A stretch of 40,048 bases of DNA from assembly GCA_029572555.1 (NCBI GenBank), contig JAKPVM010000135.1, forward strand, positions 1 through 40,048. The letters run 5' to 3'. This document shows positions 1-24,116 of the stretch, in pieces; the first letter of the stretch is position 1; each line of letters starts with the position of its first letter. The notes under the pieces are model-generated. The model was not told where the DNA came from, searched no databases, and saw only the letters and a program-made list of their open reading frames with translations. Made by a program: the position numbers and the translations under genes. This DNA is from Verrucomicrobiota bacterium (GTDB lineage: Bacteria; Verrucomicrobiota; Verrucomicrobiia; Limisphaerales; JAKPVM01).

Positions 1-3000
1 ATCAATTGAAGTTGAACCATCAGCATTTGTTATAGATACCGAAATAAATTCAACCCAGTTAATTAAATTGCTTGATGTCTCTATTTTATATTGCTTATTT
101 GGTTCACCTATAAATTTTAAGCAGGTTTTGTTATTTGGTAATCTCTCTATAAGACTAAAATATCCCGGGTTATCCTTAATTAGCGGGTTTTTGCCTAATT
201 GATATTCCTGCCAATTATTTAATCCATCACCATCAGAATCAATATAGTCCGCAGAACCATCTGTCGACAGACCATATTTTTGCAACCAATCAATAAATTG
301 ACCAGGGACTGCTGACTGAAACTCATAAGCCCCCATATCTACAGTTCCACCGTAGATTCTGGGACGCCCATCAAAATCAACATCTCCGGAGGCATAATAA
401 TTAGTAACTGCATTGATACAGGGCGAATTGGATTGTAACCGTAAGTTGCCATTAGATAAATCCACAAACAGCGGTTCATCACTTATATTGCCTTCACCAT
501 CAGGTAAAGGAGTAGTGCAAGAATAATAGAAGGTTGAGATATAATAATTTGGATAATTAGAAGCAACGTTATAATAAACGATACAATTATAATTCGTGGA
601 ACGAGATACTCCTGCGCCGTATCTGGCATAATTCAAAGTAAGTGAACAGTTGTAAAGCGCAGAACCATAATCACCACCGCCGCCAGTTTTAGCTGAATTA
701 TCGGTCAGAACACAATTATACAGAGTGGAATTATACGAACCGCCACCATAGACATTAGCCAAATTACCTCTCAGTATGCAGTTGTAAAGCACGCCTCTAC
801 TTGCGCCACCGCCATAATTGCCTGAATTTCCAACCAACGTGCAATTATAAAGCACAGAATCAGATGTGCCACCACCAAACTCTTGGGCAGAATTACCAGT
901 GATAGTGCAATTGTACATAATGGATTTATGAACAGAGCCACCCTGATGCGCAGAATTATTAGTTAGACTGCAATTATAGAGAGTTCCACCATACACGCTA
1001 CCACCATAAACAGCAGAATTACCAGTAAAAGCGCAGTAATAAAACATTCCCCCAGACGCGCTCCCCCCTGAGTAAGCAGAATTGCCAATCAACACACAAT
1101 TACTAACAATACCGCTTGTCTCACAGAATACACCGCCACCACTGTTATTTTGGGAACCTAATTCGTTGAAATATCCACTTGACGAAGAATGTCCATTGGT
1201 CAATGTGAAACCACTTAAAACAGAACTAGACCCCACATAAGCACAACGGGTTGCGCCCGAGCCAACGATAAAAGTCTCGGTGGGACCATTCATACTTTTT
1301 ACTATCACGCGGTTAGTCAACATTACCCGATTTGTTATTTGGCCATAAACAATCCGACCACCTAAATCATAAATCCCATCATTCACAATAACTAACCTTC
1401 CTGATGATTCACTGGCATCGATTGCGTCCTGAATATTATTAGCAGCAGTCTCCCAACTTGAATACGGATACGTTGGAGATTTGCTTTCGCAATCCACATA
1501 AAACACCGGTTGGTTTACAACATTTATCTGCACTGTATCACTTACCCCTGATGGCAAACTATCATTGTATCCAGTGAGTCTCACCGTATAAACACCGGCA
1601 CTGCTCCAACTATGACTTATATAAGCTTGATTACTAACCGTTATTCCGTCGCCAAAATCCCAAACGCTGGAAGAAATTAGCCCTTGCGCTTGCGCTACAA
1701 ATGAGACTTTAAATCCGGTTGGGATATTTGTATCTCTAACATCAATTGAGACTGCAAGTGGTCCTTTGGCGTTGTCGGGCACATATTGGTCAGCGCCCAT
1801 AGCTGGAGGTTCTAACCACGGTTCGCCATCAATATCAACACCTCTTGCGTAAATTGAGTTGCCTTTGCCAAGACAAGGAGAGTTTGCCGATAGGTGTGTT
1901 GCAGAAGCAAACAATGGTTCATCACTAATGTTTCCTACTCCGTCAGGTAAAGGCACTACGCAAGAGTATCTAAACGTTGATTCATAATAATTGGTGCTCC
2001 GCGTTGATAAGTTATAATAAACAATGCAGTTATAAAGCGCAGAACTGCATACACCTCCACCATTGCCTTTTGCAGAATTACCCGTCAGTGTGCAGTTATA
2101 TAATGTTGAATAATAAGTTCCACCACCATTACCTCTTACTGAATTGCTAATCACTATGCAGTTATAAAGTGTAGAACCATACGCGCCGCCACCATTATTT
2201 TGGGCTGAATTACCAATTAGCACGCAATTGCTTACAATACCGCCGACATCACACCATACCCCGCCCCCACTCTGCTCTTTATCAGAATCTCCGCTTGCCC
2301 GTGTATGACCATTGGTTAAAGTAAATCCGCTTAATATTGCGTTTGTCCCTATATAAGCGCAACGAATTGCGCCATCTCCATTTCCACCGCCTATTCCCGC
2401 CGAACCAACAATAAAAGTCTCTGCTGGACCGTTTACACTTTTAACTATCACCTCTTTATCTAACACAACCCGATTGGTCATTTGCCCATAAATAGCCACA
2501 CCGCCAATGTTGTATACGCCATTTGTAACGAGCACGACATCGCCCGATTGCGCTGCATCCACAGCCTCTTGAATAGTTCGCGCAGCAGTCTCCCAGCTTG
2601 AATATGGATATGATGGAGATGCGCTTTTGGCATTTACATAATGCACTGGCTGGCTAACAACTTTTACTACCGCTGTAGCGCTTACGCCTGACGGGAAACT
2701 GTCATTATATCCAGTAAGCCGAACGATATAATCGCCCGGTGTATTCCAGCTATAACTTATGCAAGGCTGGTTACTTATTATGAAATCATTGCCAAAATCC
2801 CAAACAATTGCGGAAATTGGTCCCTGGTTTTGCGCAACAAACAAAACTGAAAATCCAGTTGGAACATTGGTGCGGCTGGCATCAATTGAGACAATTAGTG
2901 TTCCTTTGATATTGTCGGATACATATTCATCAGCTCCCATAGAAGGAGGATTAAGCCACGGTTCACCATCTATATCAACACCGCTGGCATATTGCGAACT

Positions 3001-6000
3001 CCCTTTGCCAATACAAGGCGAGCTTGCAGAAATGTGCGTGGCTGAAATAAGTAATGGCTCATCACTTATATTGCCTTCACCCGCAGGTAAAGGAGCTGCG
3101 CAGGAATAATTGAGTATTGAATTGTAATAATTGGGATTACCGGGAGATTTATTATAATAAACAATACAGTTATATAACTTTGAACCATACACACCGCCAC
3201 CGTCGTATCTGGCTGAATTACCAGTCAATGTGCAGTTATAGAACTCGCCAAGATATGCGCCGCCACCGTTAAAAGCCGAATTGCAAGTCAATGCAGAGTT
3301 GTAGTTTGTGGAATTATATGCACCACCGCCTTCGTTCGCTGAATTTCTATTTAAGCTACAATTATAAAGTGCCCCTAAATATGCGCCGCCGCCATAAGAT
3401 TTCGCCGAATTATAATTCAGTTTACAATTATAAAGTGTACAACCAAAGGCGCCGCCACCCAAATCAGCTGAATTTTCGGTAAATGTACAATCGTAGTTTG
3501 TGGAAGAATACGCGCCACCGCCGCAATATGCTGAATTCTTTGTTAATATACAATCGTATAACATTCCAAAATATGCGCCGCCACCATAAGATTTCGCCGA
3601 ATTATTAATTAACGCACAGTTGTAGACAATGGAATTAAAAGCACCGCCGCCACAATTTCCCGCAAAATTGTTTGTCAATCCACAATTATTCAGTGTACAC
3701 CAATACACACCTCCGCCATTCATATTAGCCAAATTATTGGTTAAAGTACAATTGTAGAGAGTAGAATTGCAAGCGGCACCACCAGAATTTCCAGATGTAT
3801 TGCCTGCCAATATGCAATCGTATAGTGTAACATTCTCAGCACCGCCACCATTCCAAGAAGCCGAATTATTAATTAGCGCACAATTATATAAAGCTGAATA
3901 AAAAAATGTGTCACATTGCAAGCCATAATAGTCGCTAAATACATAGTTATACAATGTTCCAAAGTATGCACCACCACCAATACCGGCTGAATTTCCAACT
4001 AACACACAATTACTTACAACGCCACCTGTCTCTAACAATACTCCTCCACCAAATTGGGCGCTTCCATTAGTCAGTGTAAACCCGCTTAACACTGCGTCTC
4101 TTACAATGTAAGCGCAACGAATTGCACCTCCACTTGCAGAAGATCCAACAATAAAAGTCTCTGTTGGACCATTTGCACTCTTTACAATTGCTGCATTTGT
4201 TAAAATTACTCTGCCGTAATCGGCGCTGCCGCCTGTATCATAAATCCCATTTGTTACCAATATCAACCGACCCGGTAAAGTACCAGCATCAATCGCATCT
4301 TGAATAGTTTGCGCAGCAGTTTCCCAACTTGAATAAGGAAACGATGGGGAAGAATTTTCGGCATTCACATAAAATACTGATTGACTCACTGTTATAATCA
4401 CAGTGGCGTTGCTGCCTGACGGAAAACTATCGTTATATCCAGTAAGCCGAACAATATAATCGCCGGGTGTAGTCCAACTATGATTGACAAAAGCCCGATT
4501 ACTTACTGTCGTTCCATCGCCAAAATCCCAAACCGTGGCAGAAATTGCTCCTTGATTTTGCGCTATAAACGAGATTGCGAAACCAGTTGCTATATTTGTG
4601 TAGTTTACATCAATCGAAACAAAAATTTCTCCTGAGGCATTGCCGAGTATATATTCATCTGCGCCCATAGCAGGAGGATCAAGCCACTGTTCACCATCAA
4701 TATCAACACCAATTGCATATTTTGAACTGCCCTTGCCTAAACAAGGAGAGTTTGCTGGTATATGAGTAGATGTAATGAGTAATGGGTCATCGTTAATATT
4801 GCCTTCACCATAAGGCAAAGGAGTGGTGCAAGAATAGTTGATAATTGAATCAAGATAATTCGCTCCTACGAAAGCGGTATTATAATACAAAATGCAATTA
4901 TATAATGTAGATGAAATTACGCCTCCTCCAGAATTTTCTGATGAATTGCCAGTTAAAGTGCAGTTGTAAAGTGTAGAATAATAACTTCCACCGCCCTCAA
5001 AAAAAACCGAATTTGCAGTTAATATACAGTTATAAAGCGTACACTCGTTGACGCCGCCACCTCTGTTACGAGCATAATTGCGCGTTAATGTGCAATTGTA
5101 AAGAGTGCCTTCATCTGTGCCACCGCCCTCATCATAAGCATAATTATTACTTACTGTGCAATTGTAAAGAATGCAACCCGATGCGCCGCCACCATCATCA
5201 TTAGCCGAATTACCAGTCAGTGTGCAATTGTAAATAATGCCTCCCCACACACCACCAGCATCATTTATAGCTGAATTACCAATTAGCACACAGTTGCTGA
5301 TAACTCCACTTAACTCGCACGATGCGCCACCACCGTTTCCATCATAATTCCAAATTGCTGAAGTATGCCCATTAGTTAAAGTAAACCCACTTAAAAATGA
5401 ATTGGTTCCAACATAAGCGCAACGAACAGCATCATCGCCATTGCCACCAGCCGACGCCTCAGCGCCTACAATGAATGTCTTCGTTGGTCCGTTAACACTT
5501 TGAACGATAACAGGCTTGTCAATCGCCACGCGATTTGTGATTAAGCCATAAACAACCTTCCCGCCCGTGTTATATATCCCGTTGGTAACAAGCACAATAC
5601 CACCGGGTATAGCTATATCTACAGCATCCTGAATGGTTTGCGCCGCAGTTTCCCAACTTGAATAAGGATACGTAGAAAATGAACTTTCGGCATTAACATA
5701 ATACACAGGTCTATTTACAACCTTTATTATCACTGTGTTACTTACTCCTGACGGATAACTGTCGTTATATCCTGTGAGTCGAACAGTATATTCACCCGGT
5801 GTGTTCCAGATATGGCTGATATAGGCTTTATTGCTAACTACCACCCCATCGCCAAAGTCCCAAACAATAGCAGAGATTGGTCCCCTATTTTGCGCTATAA
5901 ACAAGATTGCGAAACCAGTTGCTATATTTGTGTAGTTTACATCAATCGAAACAACAATTTCTCCTGTGGCATTACCTAATATATATTCATCTGCGCCCAT

Positions 6001-7170
6001 AGCAGGAGGGTCAAGCCACTGTTCACCATCAATATCAACACCAATTGCATAGTTTGAACTGCCCTTGCCTAAACAAGGAGAATTTGAGGATATGTGACTT
6101 GATGTAATAAATAATGGATCATCGCTAATATTTCCTTCACCTTCAGGTAATGGAACAGTACAAGAATAATTGAATGTTGAATTATAATAATTGGGATAAT
6201 TAGGCGATGTATTATAATAAACAATACAATTGTAGTTAGTGGAATTTGCCACACCACCACCAAATTCCTTAGCAGAATTGCCATTCAATGTGCAGTTATA
6301 AAGCATACAATCATTTGCGCCACCACCATCATATCTTGTTGAATTGTCTGTCAACGTGGAATTATAGAGAGCGCCTTTATCCGCACCACCACCGCATTTT
6401 CCAGCAGAATTACCTGATAATGTGCAGTTGTGGAAAATGCTTCTATGCGTGCCGCCGCCATTTTTTACAGCAATATTGCCACTCACTGTACAGTTATAAA
6501 GTGTTCCCTCATCTGCTCCACCACCATCATCTTTGGCATAATTGTTAGTCAACGTACAGTTGTAGAATTTGCACTCGTTTGCGCCACCGCCATCAGATTC
6601 GGCACTATTGCCGCTCAGAATACAATCGTAAAGAGTGCCTTCATCTGCGCCGCCGCCATCATTTCCAGCGGAATTGCCTGTCAATGTACAGTTGAAGAGG
6701 GTGCCTCCATGCGCGCCACCACCATCATAATATGCTGAATTGCCAACAATCACACAATTGCTTACGATGCCACTTATCTCACTCCATACGCCACCGCCGT
6801 ACTCATTATAATAATCATTTCCCGCAAATGCTAAAGTGTGTCCATTAGTTAAAGTAAATCCGCTTAATAGTGCGTTCGTACCAACATAAACACAACGAAT
6901 TGCGCCGTCACCGTTGCCACCACCTGGTGCTTCTGAACCTACAATAAAGGTTACTGTTGGTCCGTTAACACTTTGAACGATAATTGGCTTGTCAATAGCA
7001 ACTCGGTTCGTCATTAAACCATAAACCGCCTTGCCGCCCGCGTTATATGTCCGTTTGTAACAACCACAGTATCGCCTGATTGCGCAGCATCAATGGCATC
7101 TTGAATGGTTTTTGCAGCGATTTCCCAGGTGGTGTAGGGGGATGTCGGATTTGTACTATTGATATCCACA
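1..7170 (-). repeat. Coding tandem modules (1.1-1.7 kb) with inner 63-66 bp periodicity
   Basis: Two scales of repetition are visible inside the giant gene. The long scale is a module of about 1.1-1.7 kb, seen as recurring plus-strand signatures such as 'gcagcagtctcccaacttga' near 1450, 2585, 4315 and 5645. The short scale is a 63-66 bp unit with a conserved 'gtgcagttataaagtg' and 'ccaccacc' core, encoding one beta-helix rung; for example, successive units sit at 3167, 3233 and 3296. Module 3 (about 4370-2660) carries the most rungs and modules 2 and 4 fewer, as expected from unequal recombination between units. Confidence 0.8.
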
Positions 7171-7367
7171 TAGAGCGTAGCCGCAGTCCCAACATAAGTT
7201 GAAGCAAAAAATAAGATTGCCACAAGAAATGCAACAGCCTTGAACCAAACAGCCCAACTTCGCTGTAATAAGAAATTACTTTGACACAGGTTATTGTTAT
7301 GTTGTGTTAGAGAAGTATTTGGTCCACCGGTTACGGTGTCCTGCCGATTAATTAAGTTCTTTTGCAT
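1..7367 (-). CDS. Giant exported beta-helix/PKD repeat protein, C-terminus beyond window, apparent frameshift
   Basis: Likely a secreted or surface protein; no enzymatic function can be assigned. The N-terminus (ATG at 7365-7367) has a ~37-residue polar stretch, then a hydrophobic signal segment (AVAFLVAILFFAS). Five modules follow, beginning near 7170, 5700, 4370, 2640 and 1500. Each starts with a motif like YPYSSWETAAQTIQDA and VLVTNGIYN, continues as parallel beta-helix rungs of 21-22 residues (GGG...TLYNCTLTGNSA), and ends with a 'DGEPWL.PPAMGADEY' choice-of-anchor-Q-like segment. PKD domains (VWDFGDG...SHSW...GDYTVRLTGYNDS) separate the modules at about 5880-5730, 4560-4400, 2860-2660 and 1720-1530. 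Near the left edge there is a calcium-loop-like DSDGDGLNNWQEY, as in type-3 thrombospondin repeats. The reading frame is open to base 1 apart from one frameshift near 7048-7052, where comparison with the sister modules shows one base missing, so that a stop appears at 7014. The gene is either frame-disrupted or carries an assembly error. Confidence 0.8.
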
Positions 7368-7720: not shown

Positions 7721-8020
7721 GTGAATAGAAAGGAATGGAACGCAGATTACACAGATGAAACAGATTTACACAGATGATAAGGAAAAGATAATTTAACAAG
7801 GATAGAAAGGATATACAGGATAAAAAATTGTATTCTTGTATCTTGTATCTTGTATCCTTGTATCTTATAAAACATCCTGTCCATCCTGTCTATCCGTGTT
7901 AAAAATAAAAAATCCCTGTAAATCTCCTGTCTCCGTTTTGTCTATCAAGGCAAGTATACCAATGGTATCTCTGCGTTTATCTGCGTTTCTCCTATATCTC
8001 TGCGACATCTACGAGAATAC
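7721..8020. repeat. Long imperfect direct repeat, copy A
   Basis: Begins 'gtgaatagaaaggaatggaa' and ends 'gacatctacgagaatac'. It matches copy B (8093-8376) over nearly its whole length, including the shared core 'aaaaagataatttaacaagg', 'cttataaaacatcctgtcc' and 'aagtataccaatggtatctc'. It consists of short phrases such as 'aacgcagattacacagat' and 'acaggat'. Phrases of this kind occur in dispersed intergenic repeats of many environmental bacterial genomes, often next to GxxExxY-family genes (from memory). No such gene is visible in the window. Confidence 0.85.
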
Positions 8021-8092
8021 TTAGTTATTAGTGTGGTAGAAGAAATAGGTCATACATAAATTTATTGTTATCAGTTGGGTTGGCATTACATA

Positions 8093-8376
8093 GTGAATGA
8101 AAATGGAACGCTGATTACGCAGATGAAACAGATTTACAGGATTGAAGGAAAAGATAATTTAACAAGGATACACAGGACATACAGGATAAAAAATCGTATT
8201 CTTGTATCTTGTATCCTTGGATCTTATAAAACATCCTGTCCATCCTGTCCATCCGTGTTAAAAATAAAAAATCCCTGTAAATCTCCTGTCTCCGTTTTGT
8301 CTATCAAGGCAAGTATACCAATGGTATCTCTGCATTTATCTGCGTTCTTATATCTCTGCGACATCTGCGAGAACGC
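8093..8376. repeat. Long imperfect direct repeat, copy B
   Basis: Second copy of the 7721-8020 repeat, in the same orientation. It differs by scattered substitutions and by small indels, for example one fewer 'cttgtat' unit. The 72 bp between the copies contains 'attagtgtggtagaag' (8027-8042) and 'acataaatttattgttatc', which recur at 23525 as part of a third, truncated copy. A related 'tttagtgcggtaaaa' follows copy B at 8395. The repeat unit therefore includes this linker. Confidence 0.85.
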
Positions 8377-8553
8377 TTTCCATTAGTTTTGACGTTTAGT
8401 GCGGTAAAATCAATTTTCGAATAAATCCCTGTTTTTCAATGTGTTATGAATTTGTATTTCCTAATTTATGAGGCGCGTCAAAAGTCGGGATACAATCTCT
8501 TATTCGCCCTATTTGTTTTATGTATCCAATTACCCCTATTGATCCCACCCTTC

Positions 8554-23506: not shown

Positions 23507-23520
23507 ATTTCCTAAGTTTT

Positions 23521-23629
23521 GATAATTAGTGTGGTAGAAGAAGTTCATAGACAATACATAAATTTATTGTTATCAGTCAGCCAAAGGATGGCATTAGATA
23601 AGGATTGGAATAAATGGAACGCAGATTTA
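23521..23629. repeat. Truncated third copy of the dispersed repeat
   Basis: From 'attagtgtggtagaag' at 23525 through 'acataaatttattgttatc' and 'ggcattaga' to 'atggaacgcagattta', this stretch matches the linker plus start of the repeat at 8027-8120. The match stops abruptly where the inverted-repeat element at 23631 begins, so the rest of the copy appears to be lost or displaced. Confidence 0.7.
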
Positions 23630-23630
23630 C

Positions 23631-23703
23631 CCCAACTTCACGTAATAAATTTCGTAACTACTTGAATAACAATAGGTTATAAAATTTATTACATGAAGTT
23701 GGG
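23631..23703. mobile_element. Short inverted-repeat (hairpin) element
   Basis: Two 28-base arms, 23631-23658 (starting CCCAACTTCA) and 23676-23703 (ending TGAAGTTGGG), are inverted repeats matching at 25 of 28 positions around a 17-base loop. It has no coding capacity. Its left side abuts a truncated repeat copy and its right side the cut end of a fucosidase pseudogene. Its ends resemble those of the element at 29565-29711. A MITE-like or palindromic element is the most economical reading; a terminator is unlikely because it has no T-tract. Confidence 0.55.
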
Positions 23704-24116
23704 TTAGAGCGCTGTTTGCAAGTGTAAACCACGGGTGTCTTGCCGTTCCGTTTTAAATCTGAGTTGTAATAATGCGCAATTAATGAAAGCCCGTATTCAT
23801 TGCCAAAAGACACCGCGCCATCAGTATAAAACAGGTCGGGGTTATATTTATCCACAAGGTCTTTTATTCGCATAAACCAGGTCTGGTGTTTTACTATACC
23901 AACCTTTATCATCAGGGGGCTGCCTGAGGTCCCCAGTGCGCCCAGATACCAAATTTAGCGTCCCTGAACCACTCCGGACATTATAATTTGTCAATGACTC
24001 AGACGATGGTTTAAACGGTCATGGTGTAATTGATAAAAGGACATTGTTTGTTGTGCATTGACAGAAATAACCGCACCAATTGCGAACCCCGAAATAATTG
24101 GCAATAATCTTTTCAT
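23704..24116 (-). pseudogene. Decayed alpha-L-fucosidase (GH29) remnant
   Basis: The start ATG (24114-24116) opens a normal signal peptide (MKRLLPIISGFAIGAVIS). GH29 pieces then appear in three frames: PEWFRDAKFGIWAHWGPQA (23980-23921), then PDDKGWYSKTP, then WFMRIKDLVDKYNPDLFYTDG and AHYYNSDLKRN...VYTCKQ. The first two pieces are normally well over a hundred residues apart, so a large internal deletion joined them. At least two single-base frameshifts are also present. The PDLFYTDG segment contains the expected nucleophile Asp region. The C-terminal part is absent, ending exactly at the hairpin element at 23703. The gene sits next to xylanase genes and was probably part of the same polysaccharide locus. 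Confidence 0.8.

Follow-up and report, generated by a model that had tools for sequence, protein, structure and literature searches.

A genome-specific terminal-repeat miniature element with nested inverted word arms in a Verrucomicrobiota bacterium

Repeat copies in the window

The window analysed here, a stretch of 40,048 nucleotides from a Verrucomicrobiota bacterium (assembly GCA_029572555.1, contig JAKPVM010000135.1), contains two long copies of a dispersed repeat at about 7734-8022 and 8103-8376, which are about 90% identical and were recovered as the direct-repeat families D12-D15, as well as a shorter piece located about 23.5 kb into the window. Both long copies had been described in an initial annotation and are real, as is the linker that they have in common with the third piece (family D16; nhmmer E value of 1.8e-7 at 23526-23629). 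The boundaries drawn at that time had to be corrected, as the element to which the second copy belongs extends to position 8490: it includes a second S motif (8384-8409), and its 3′ terminal inverted repeat falls within 8461-8490. What had been called the linker forms the 5′ part of the element. All features of the repeat given in the following for the window lie on the plus strand.

The first copy (7734-8022; repeat families, alignment, nhmmer and flank alignment) comprises the word region only; its 5′ end and 3′ core are missing and it is fused in tandem to the second copy. It consists of an outer left word arm at 7739-7775 (AACGCAGAT TACACAGAT GAAACAGAT TTACACAGAT), an inner left word arm at 7792-7822 (TTTAACAAGGAT AGAAAGGAT ATACAGGAT), which pairs in the predicted fold with the inner right word arm at 7874-7903 (ATCCTGTCC ATCCTGTCT ATCCGTGTTAAA), and an outer right word arm at 7967-8016 (ATCTCTGCG TTTATCTGCG ... 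CTACGAGAA), the arms being assigned from sequence and fold. The second copy starts at 8027-8100 with a 5′ S motif, of which part is lost at the tandem junction, and the linker (nhmmer and flank alignment). These are followed by its four word arms, likewise assigned from sequence and fold: outer left at 8107-8134, inner left at 8158-8187 (TTTAACAAGGAT ACACAGGAC ATACAGGAT), inner right at 8233-8262 (ATCCTGTCC ATCCTGTCC ATCCGTGTTAAA) and outer right at 8327-8373. The second S motif (TAGTTTTGACGTTTAGTGCGGTAAAA; 8384-8409, motif scan) marks the start of the part homologous to the minimal element described below, and the 3′ end with its terminal inverted repeat (GCGCGTCAAAAGTCGGGA) lies at 8461-8490 (flank alignment and 3′-end scan).

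The third piece represents the 5′ end of a further copy (23510-23629; sequence, nhmmer, motif scan and flank comparison), in which the terminal repeat TCCTAAGTTTTGATA, an S motif at 23514-23539, the linker and the first word are present before the copy is broken off at 23629 by a different inverted repeat. The latter (CCCCAACTTCACGTAATAAATTT...AAATTTATTACATGAAGTTGGG, 23630-23706) directly truncates the copy and itself resembles another small mobile element. Upstream of the two long copies, positions 470-7190 are made up of repeats about 66 bp (22 codons) long that are embedded in larger ones, and a surface protein of repetitive sequence is probably encoded there on the minus strand.

Copy number, ends and anatomy of the dispersed element

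When the 656-bp unit was used as query, 61 matches were obtained in the source genome (83% complete), by which both a chance resemblance and a repeat occurring only at this locus, the counter-case named in the initial annotation, are excluded. Many of these matches start at the linker and stop at ...CTGCGAGAA. Many are also located at contig ends, so that the copy number is probably underestimated.

Flank alignment revealed a sharp 5′ end, TCCYGAGTTTTGACG followed by the S motif ATTAGTGCGGTA, and a sharp 3′ end, TTAATTTATGAGGCGCGTCAAAAGTCGGGA, with the 3′ terminal repeat CGTCAAAASTCGGGA; TCCYGAGTTTTGACG and CGTCAAAASTCGGGA form imperfect terminal inverted repeats. Genome-wide, 43 sites of the S motif (3 mismatches allowed) and 19 sites of the 3′ end were detected, and the reversed-pattern controls gave 0 in both cases. 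Among the 40 distinct S sites in the extracted stretches, distinguished by their upstream 20 nt, 12 were internal with word arms immediately upstream and 28 had other, non-word flanks. T precedes the terminus in 21 of the 23 flanks counted. Two of the 28 sites, L025 (minus strand) and L104, have a common left extension and may represent a longer subfamily.

Copies with both ends occur in several sizes. The minimal copies of 115-116 bp (contigs C329, C170 and C260) lack words, and the outer element therefore does not need them; an intermediate copy of 196 bp contains the linker (C292), and large copies have lengths of 459, 477 and 521 bp (C182, C177 and C144, respectively). The order in the large copies is terminal repeat, S, linker, outer words, inner words, loop, inner words, outer words, second S, core and terminal repeat, and the words form two nested pairs of inverted arms, the outer of ACGCAGAT/ATCTGCG and the inner of ACAGGAT/ATCCTGT, the words recurring about every 9 nt. 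Tandem arrays are present in the window and on C148, C198 and C183, and in some copies other hairpin modules join or replace the words. A further hairpin module, CCCGCAAAAGCGGG...CCAGCCTTCGGCTGG, recurs in or beside the copies at L061, L063, L093, L100 and L103, and the modules GGGAGCATCCTTGCTCCC and CACAGGCAGGAATGCCTGTG likewise recur in or beside other copies. The minimal copy at L065 (G000:C144:10887) is interrupted by a nested insert that has the ends GAGACCTCT/AGAGGTCTC and seems to be accompanied by a short duplication.

The S motif was found in only 1 of the 288 genomes of the phylum sample, namely the source genome. A DNA search with the unit in 39 genomes gave matches in four, the source genome and its relatives G001, G021 and G037, and the relatives share short words only. 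In genomes of the same order (L044, L046, L048, L049, L052 and L053), GGATGGACAGGATGGACAGGAT or CACGGATGGACACGGATGG words adjoin genes, and those stretches contain no S motif. The repeat is a new, genome-specific terminal-repeat miniature element, its S motif being confined to the source genome among the 288; as its anatomy shows, it has imperfect terminal inverted repeats and occupies many unrelated sites next to T-rich DNA, with long border duplications at some of them.

Border duplications and candidate transposases

At the copy on C182 the two flanks share a 50-nt alignment with 96% identity, and at the copy on C177 a direct duplication of about 17 bp was found. Additionally, a 5′ flank on C350 can be aligned with a 3′ flank on C198 over 56 nt at 96% identity, which would be the case if a single insertion had been split by the assembler into these two sides. 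The remaining five two-ended copies (C144, C329, C170, C260 and C292) had no border duplication. Published cases of long, variable target duplications (8-514 bp) are IS1549 and IS1634 (PMC2266710), and an end consensus of C-----YT is also given there. The duplications found here resemble those reported there for the two members; the end letters of the element, however, differ from that consensus.

The absence of a transposase nearby, stated in the initial annotation, holds for the 23 open reading frames of the window scanned with Pfam. Moreover, when matches to PF01609 (DDE_Tnp_1) and Y1_Tnp were considered, no transposase was identified for the element in the source genome (83% complete): PF01609 had 0 matches, and the single Y1_Tnp match was a 40-aa fragment (C42:511-627, profile positions 82-121 of 121). 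Among the S or 3′-end loci that were read from this genome, no parent element was noticed that combines these ends with a transposase. From the borders it may be inferred that the element moves, or moved, by means of a trans-acting transposase that makes long target duplications of variable length.

One explanation for these features is a plain MITE that arose by deletion from an insertion sequence, perhaps one of the IS1634 type, and in which the words are meaningless filler caught by chance. The element is indeed short and ORF-less, with terminal inverted repeats, many dispersed copies and duplications at some borders; word-less minimal copies, T-rich targets and the duplication lengths known for IS1549 and IS1634 (PMC2266710) agree with such an origin. 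It differs from a MITE in that no parent transposase was found, and in the long variable duplications, the two nested word arms and the internal tandem and modular growth. The lack of DDE_Tnp_1 matches in the source genome (83% complete) speaks against this explanation, and chance filler leaves unexplained why the inner words and the arms found with a single GxxExxY clade are the same (see below). The explanation is held to be less probable than the one proposed below.

Repeats of the REP/REPIN type, spread by a TnpA-REP (RAYT, HUH) transposase, are likewise palindromic and of high copy number, and the Y1_Tnp fragment is in favour of such an origin. The match is just 40 aa long, however, and no intact TnpA-REP was seen in the source genome (83% complete). 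The element is also much longer than a REP, with terminal inverted repeats and some border duplications, and terminal inverted repeats and border duplications are not expected of HUH copies. A REP/REPIN origin is therefore considered very unlikely.

Predicted folding and RNA features

The initial annotation had proposed a structured, possibly transcribed unit. The first part stands, as the unit is hairpin-forming (fold z of -4.8 and -5.3), and this strong predicted folding is what speaks for a regulatory or structured RNA, with the hairpin formed in a transcript of the unit. Transcription found no support: Rfam gave 0 matches to the unit, compensatory changes were present in 0 of 29 predicted pairs with an unfavourable covariation term in an alignment of ten of the 11 extracted copies, promoter-like sites numbered 2 as compared with 4.9 in shuffles, and no terminator was found. 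The RNA reading was dropped after these scans and is the least probable of the explanations considered here; the strong fold fits inverted repeats in DNA.

GxxExxY genes and their flanking arms

GxxExxY genes (TIGR04256 / PF13366 PDDEXK_3), which the initial annotation had suggested looking for beside the copies, do not accompany them in the source genome: in repeated searches of this genome (83% complete), TIGR04256 gave 0 matches, and no GxxExxY nuclease gene was found between arms, nor was a remnant of one seen in the loops of the copies. In other genomes the association of gene and words proved to be real. TIGR04256 was detected in 162 of the 288 genomes of the phylum sample, with up to 13 copies per genome, and nearly all genes at the 30 loci read were located between inverted arms of iterated words, e.g., TTAACCACAGAGGACACAGAG...CTCTGTGTCCTCTGTGGT. 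A scan of a species-genome collection added 80 loci from many phyla, the best of 590. Among the resulting 110 loci, 102 had enough flank for scoring, and an inverted-arm score of at least 14, the cut-off used, was reached by 68 of the 102 GxxExxY genes (34 fell below it) as compared with 17 of 2353 control positions taken from these loci. A word class or arms were present at 133 of 137 GxxExxY genes. A loose count of words of the source genome's own type near the first 110 genes gave 6 versus 3 loci.

At the junction of gatA and gatB, a GxxExxY cassette was present in 4 of 16 genomes read by sequence, and in 6 of 18 when the coordinates of G160 and G193 were added, these genomes having been chosen partly because some held the cassette. 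The genera g47, g52, g63 and g100 each show both presence and absence. Several junctions without the gene contain ORF-less hairpins of other dialects (G210, G266, G312, G113 and G086, read by eye). Since such other hairpins often fill the site, the comparison of empty and occupied gatA-gatB sites revealed presence and absence and no clean duplication. ORF-less inverted word hairpins of other dialects, e.g., CTCCAAGCTCCAAGCTC and AACCGCGAAT...ATTCGCGGTT, were also observed between gatA and gatB at L289, L292, L294, L296 and L297.

On viral contigs two GxxExxY relatives were found, and a second profile (A2) found none. With one query protein, GxxExxY was present in 0 of 50,697 phage records and in 8 of 72,556 plasmid records. 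Two of the plasmid genes, the GxGL genes at L311 and L313, have ACAGAG-type arms; the other six of the 8 plasmid loci scored below 14, among them L314, which has GCGAAG words upstream only. The genes at L311, L313 and L314 are co-directional with their neighbours (after ade, after radA, and between fabD and fabG).

GxxExxY is a PD-(D/E)XK protein according to its Pfam match and a structural model. All 12 members of A1 match PDDEXK_3, and D67, E77 and K79 are conserved without exception across 46 sequences. The best structural match of the model (pLDDT 95) was SSO0001 (4ic1; Z 9.6, rmsd 3.0, 97 aligned), a Cas4 protein, followed by Hjc-type Holliday junction resolvases at Z values of about 6-7. 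A sequence search of solved structures gave no match, Foldseek gave nothing at E values of 0.001 or below, and PADLOC reported weak matches to Cas4 in 2 of 12 and to Cas4b in 1 of 12. As judged from the model, it is plausible that GxxExxY is a nuclease acting on hairpins, cruciforms or ends. In the literature found on GxxExxY the gene flanks are not treated and no role is described, and no description of word arms beside these genes was found in the literature searched, including searches with the word strings.

Word dialects and protein clades

Two further searches with GxGF queries yielded loci at which many genes are bracketed by GACAGGATNNACAGGATNNACAGGAT...ATCCTGT arms. The dialect set comprised 169 loci (L119-L287) with 149 different genes, which were classified, partly by eye, as AGAG (70), GAAG (29), GGAT (28), CAGAT (5) or none (17); the class none holds mostly other dialects and did not contribute support to the dialect tests. 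At least two GGAT words were present near 28 of the 149 genes and far from 0, AGAG words near 72 versus far from 5, and GAAG words near 34 versus far from 2, and CAGAT words were not enriched (near 9, far 9). The three dialects that were counted have a main word period of 8-10 nt, and for the ACAGGAT words of the source genome it is 9.

In a protein tree of 145 sequences, 128 of them labelled, the four dialect labels needed 16 changes as compared with 53.4 after shuffling, and a number as low was seen in 0 of 200 shuffles. The tree is based on few columns and leaves many forks open, and a test of this kind is inflated by near-copies. Tandem ACAGGAT pairs were located near 21 of 40 GxGF/Y genes (missing at the other 19) versus 0 of 101 GxGL genes, and tandem ACRGAG/ACRAAG near 0 of 40 GxGF/Y genes versus 69 of 101 GxGL genes, with 8 further genes (I, M or unclear) excluded from these tables. 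Within GxGL, ACRAAG pairs accompany 19 of 24 proteins with an N-terminal F[DE]xLS versus 5 of 77 others. The word dialect follows the GxxExxY protein clade.

The inner arms of the second copy in the window, TTTAACAAGGATACACAGGACATACAGGAT...ATCCTGTCCATCCTGTCCATCCGTG, have the same letters, period and inverted layout as the GxGF/Y arms. In the stretches extracted from the source genome (162,620 bp) there were 45 tandem ACAGGAT pairs versus a mean of 0.0 in shuffles, a count that describes a pattern and not a genome rate, as these stretches were chosen for holding copies. On the basis of letters and layout, the inner arms in the window can firmly be read as the GxGF/Y dialect without its gene. 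The outer words (ACGCAGAT) obey the same grammar as the dialect words, and outer tandem words were found near 3 of 149 GxxExxY genes versus far from 0 of 149; L253 (GFLEKVY) is the only gene found to have them clearly on both sides, so that their link to GxxExxY is a weak one. For the outer ACAGAT words no link is claimed, given the unenriched CAGAT words and a stricter tandem test of 3 versus 0 of 149.

Proposed interpretation and implications

Taken together, the repeat is best read as a terminal-repeat miniature element carrying ORF-less word-arm cassettes of the GxGF/Y type, a reading that we hold to be moderately probable. It shares with GxxExxY loci the inner ACAGGAT/ATCCTGT arms and the period of about 9 nt found at GxGF/Y-clade genes; in contrast to these loci, it lacks a nuclease gene, and its arms are nested in a terminal-repeat element present in 1 of 288 genomes. 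The arms would be arrays of putative binding sites for GxxExxY nucleases, as their letters and layout suggest, and the copies in the window would be ORF-less word cassettes inside the outer element, travelling with it. Both the mobility of the element and the recognition of its arms are deduced from sequence, and its movement by a transposase making long duplications is likewise put forward as a probable route.

A broader reading, offered tentatively and as possible rather than probable, would make word-arm cassettes (ACAGAG, ACGAAG, ACGGAG, ACAGGAT and other dialects, period 8-10 nt, two inverted arms) a pan-bacterial form of mobile DNA in which nuclease clades recognise their own dialects and ORF-less cassettes spread in trans; the element in the window would then be a nested derivative with two dialects that a host-specific terminal-repeat element has captured.

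Of broader interest than the element itself is the finding that its inner words are the arms of one nuclease clade. If the arms are the substrate of GxxExxY, many unexplained intergenic repeats of uncultured bacteria would gain an enzyme, and the pairing of clade and dialect would allow a letter-level prediction of a DNA-recognition code. If the pan-bacterial reading is true, the letters of the nuclease would predict the DNA words.
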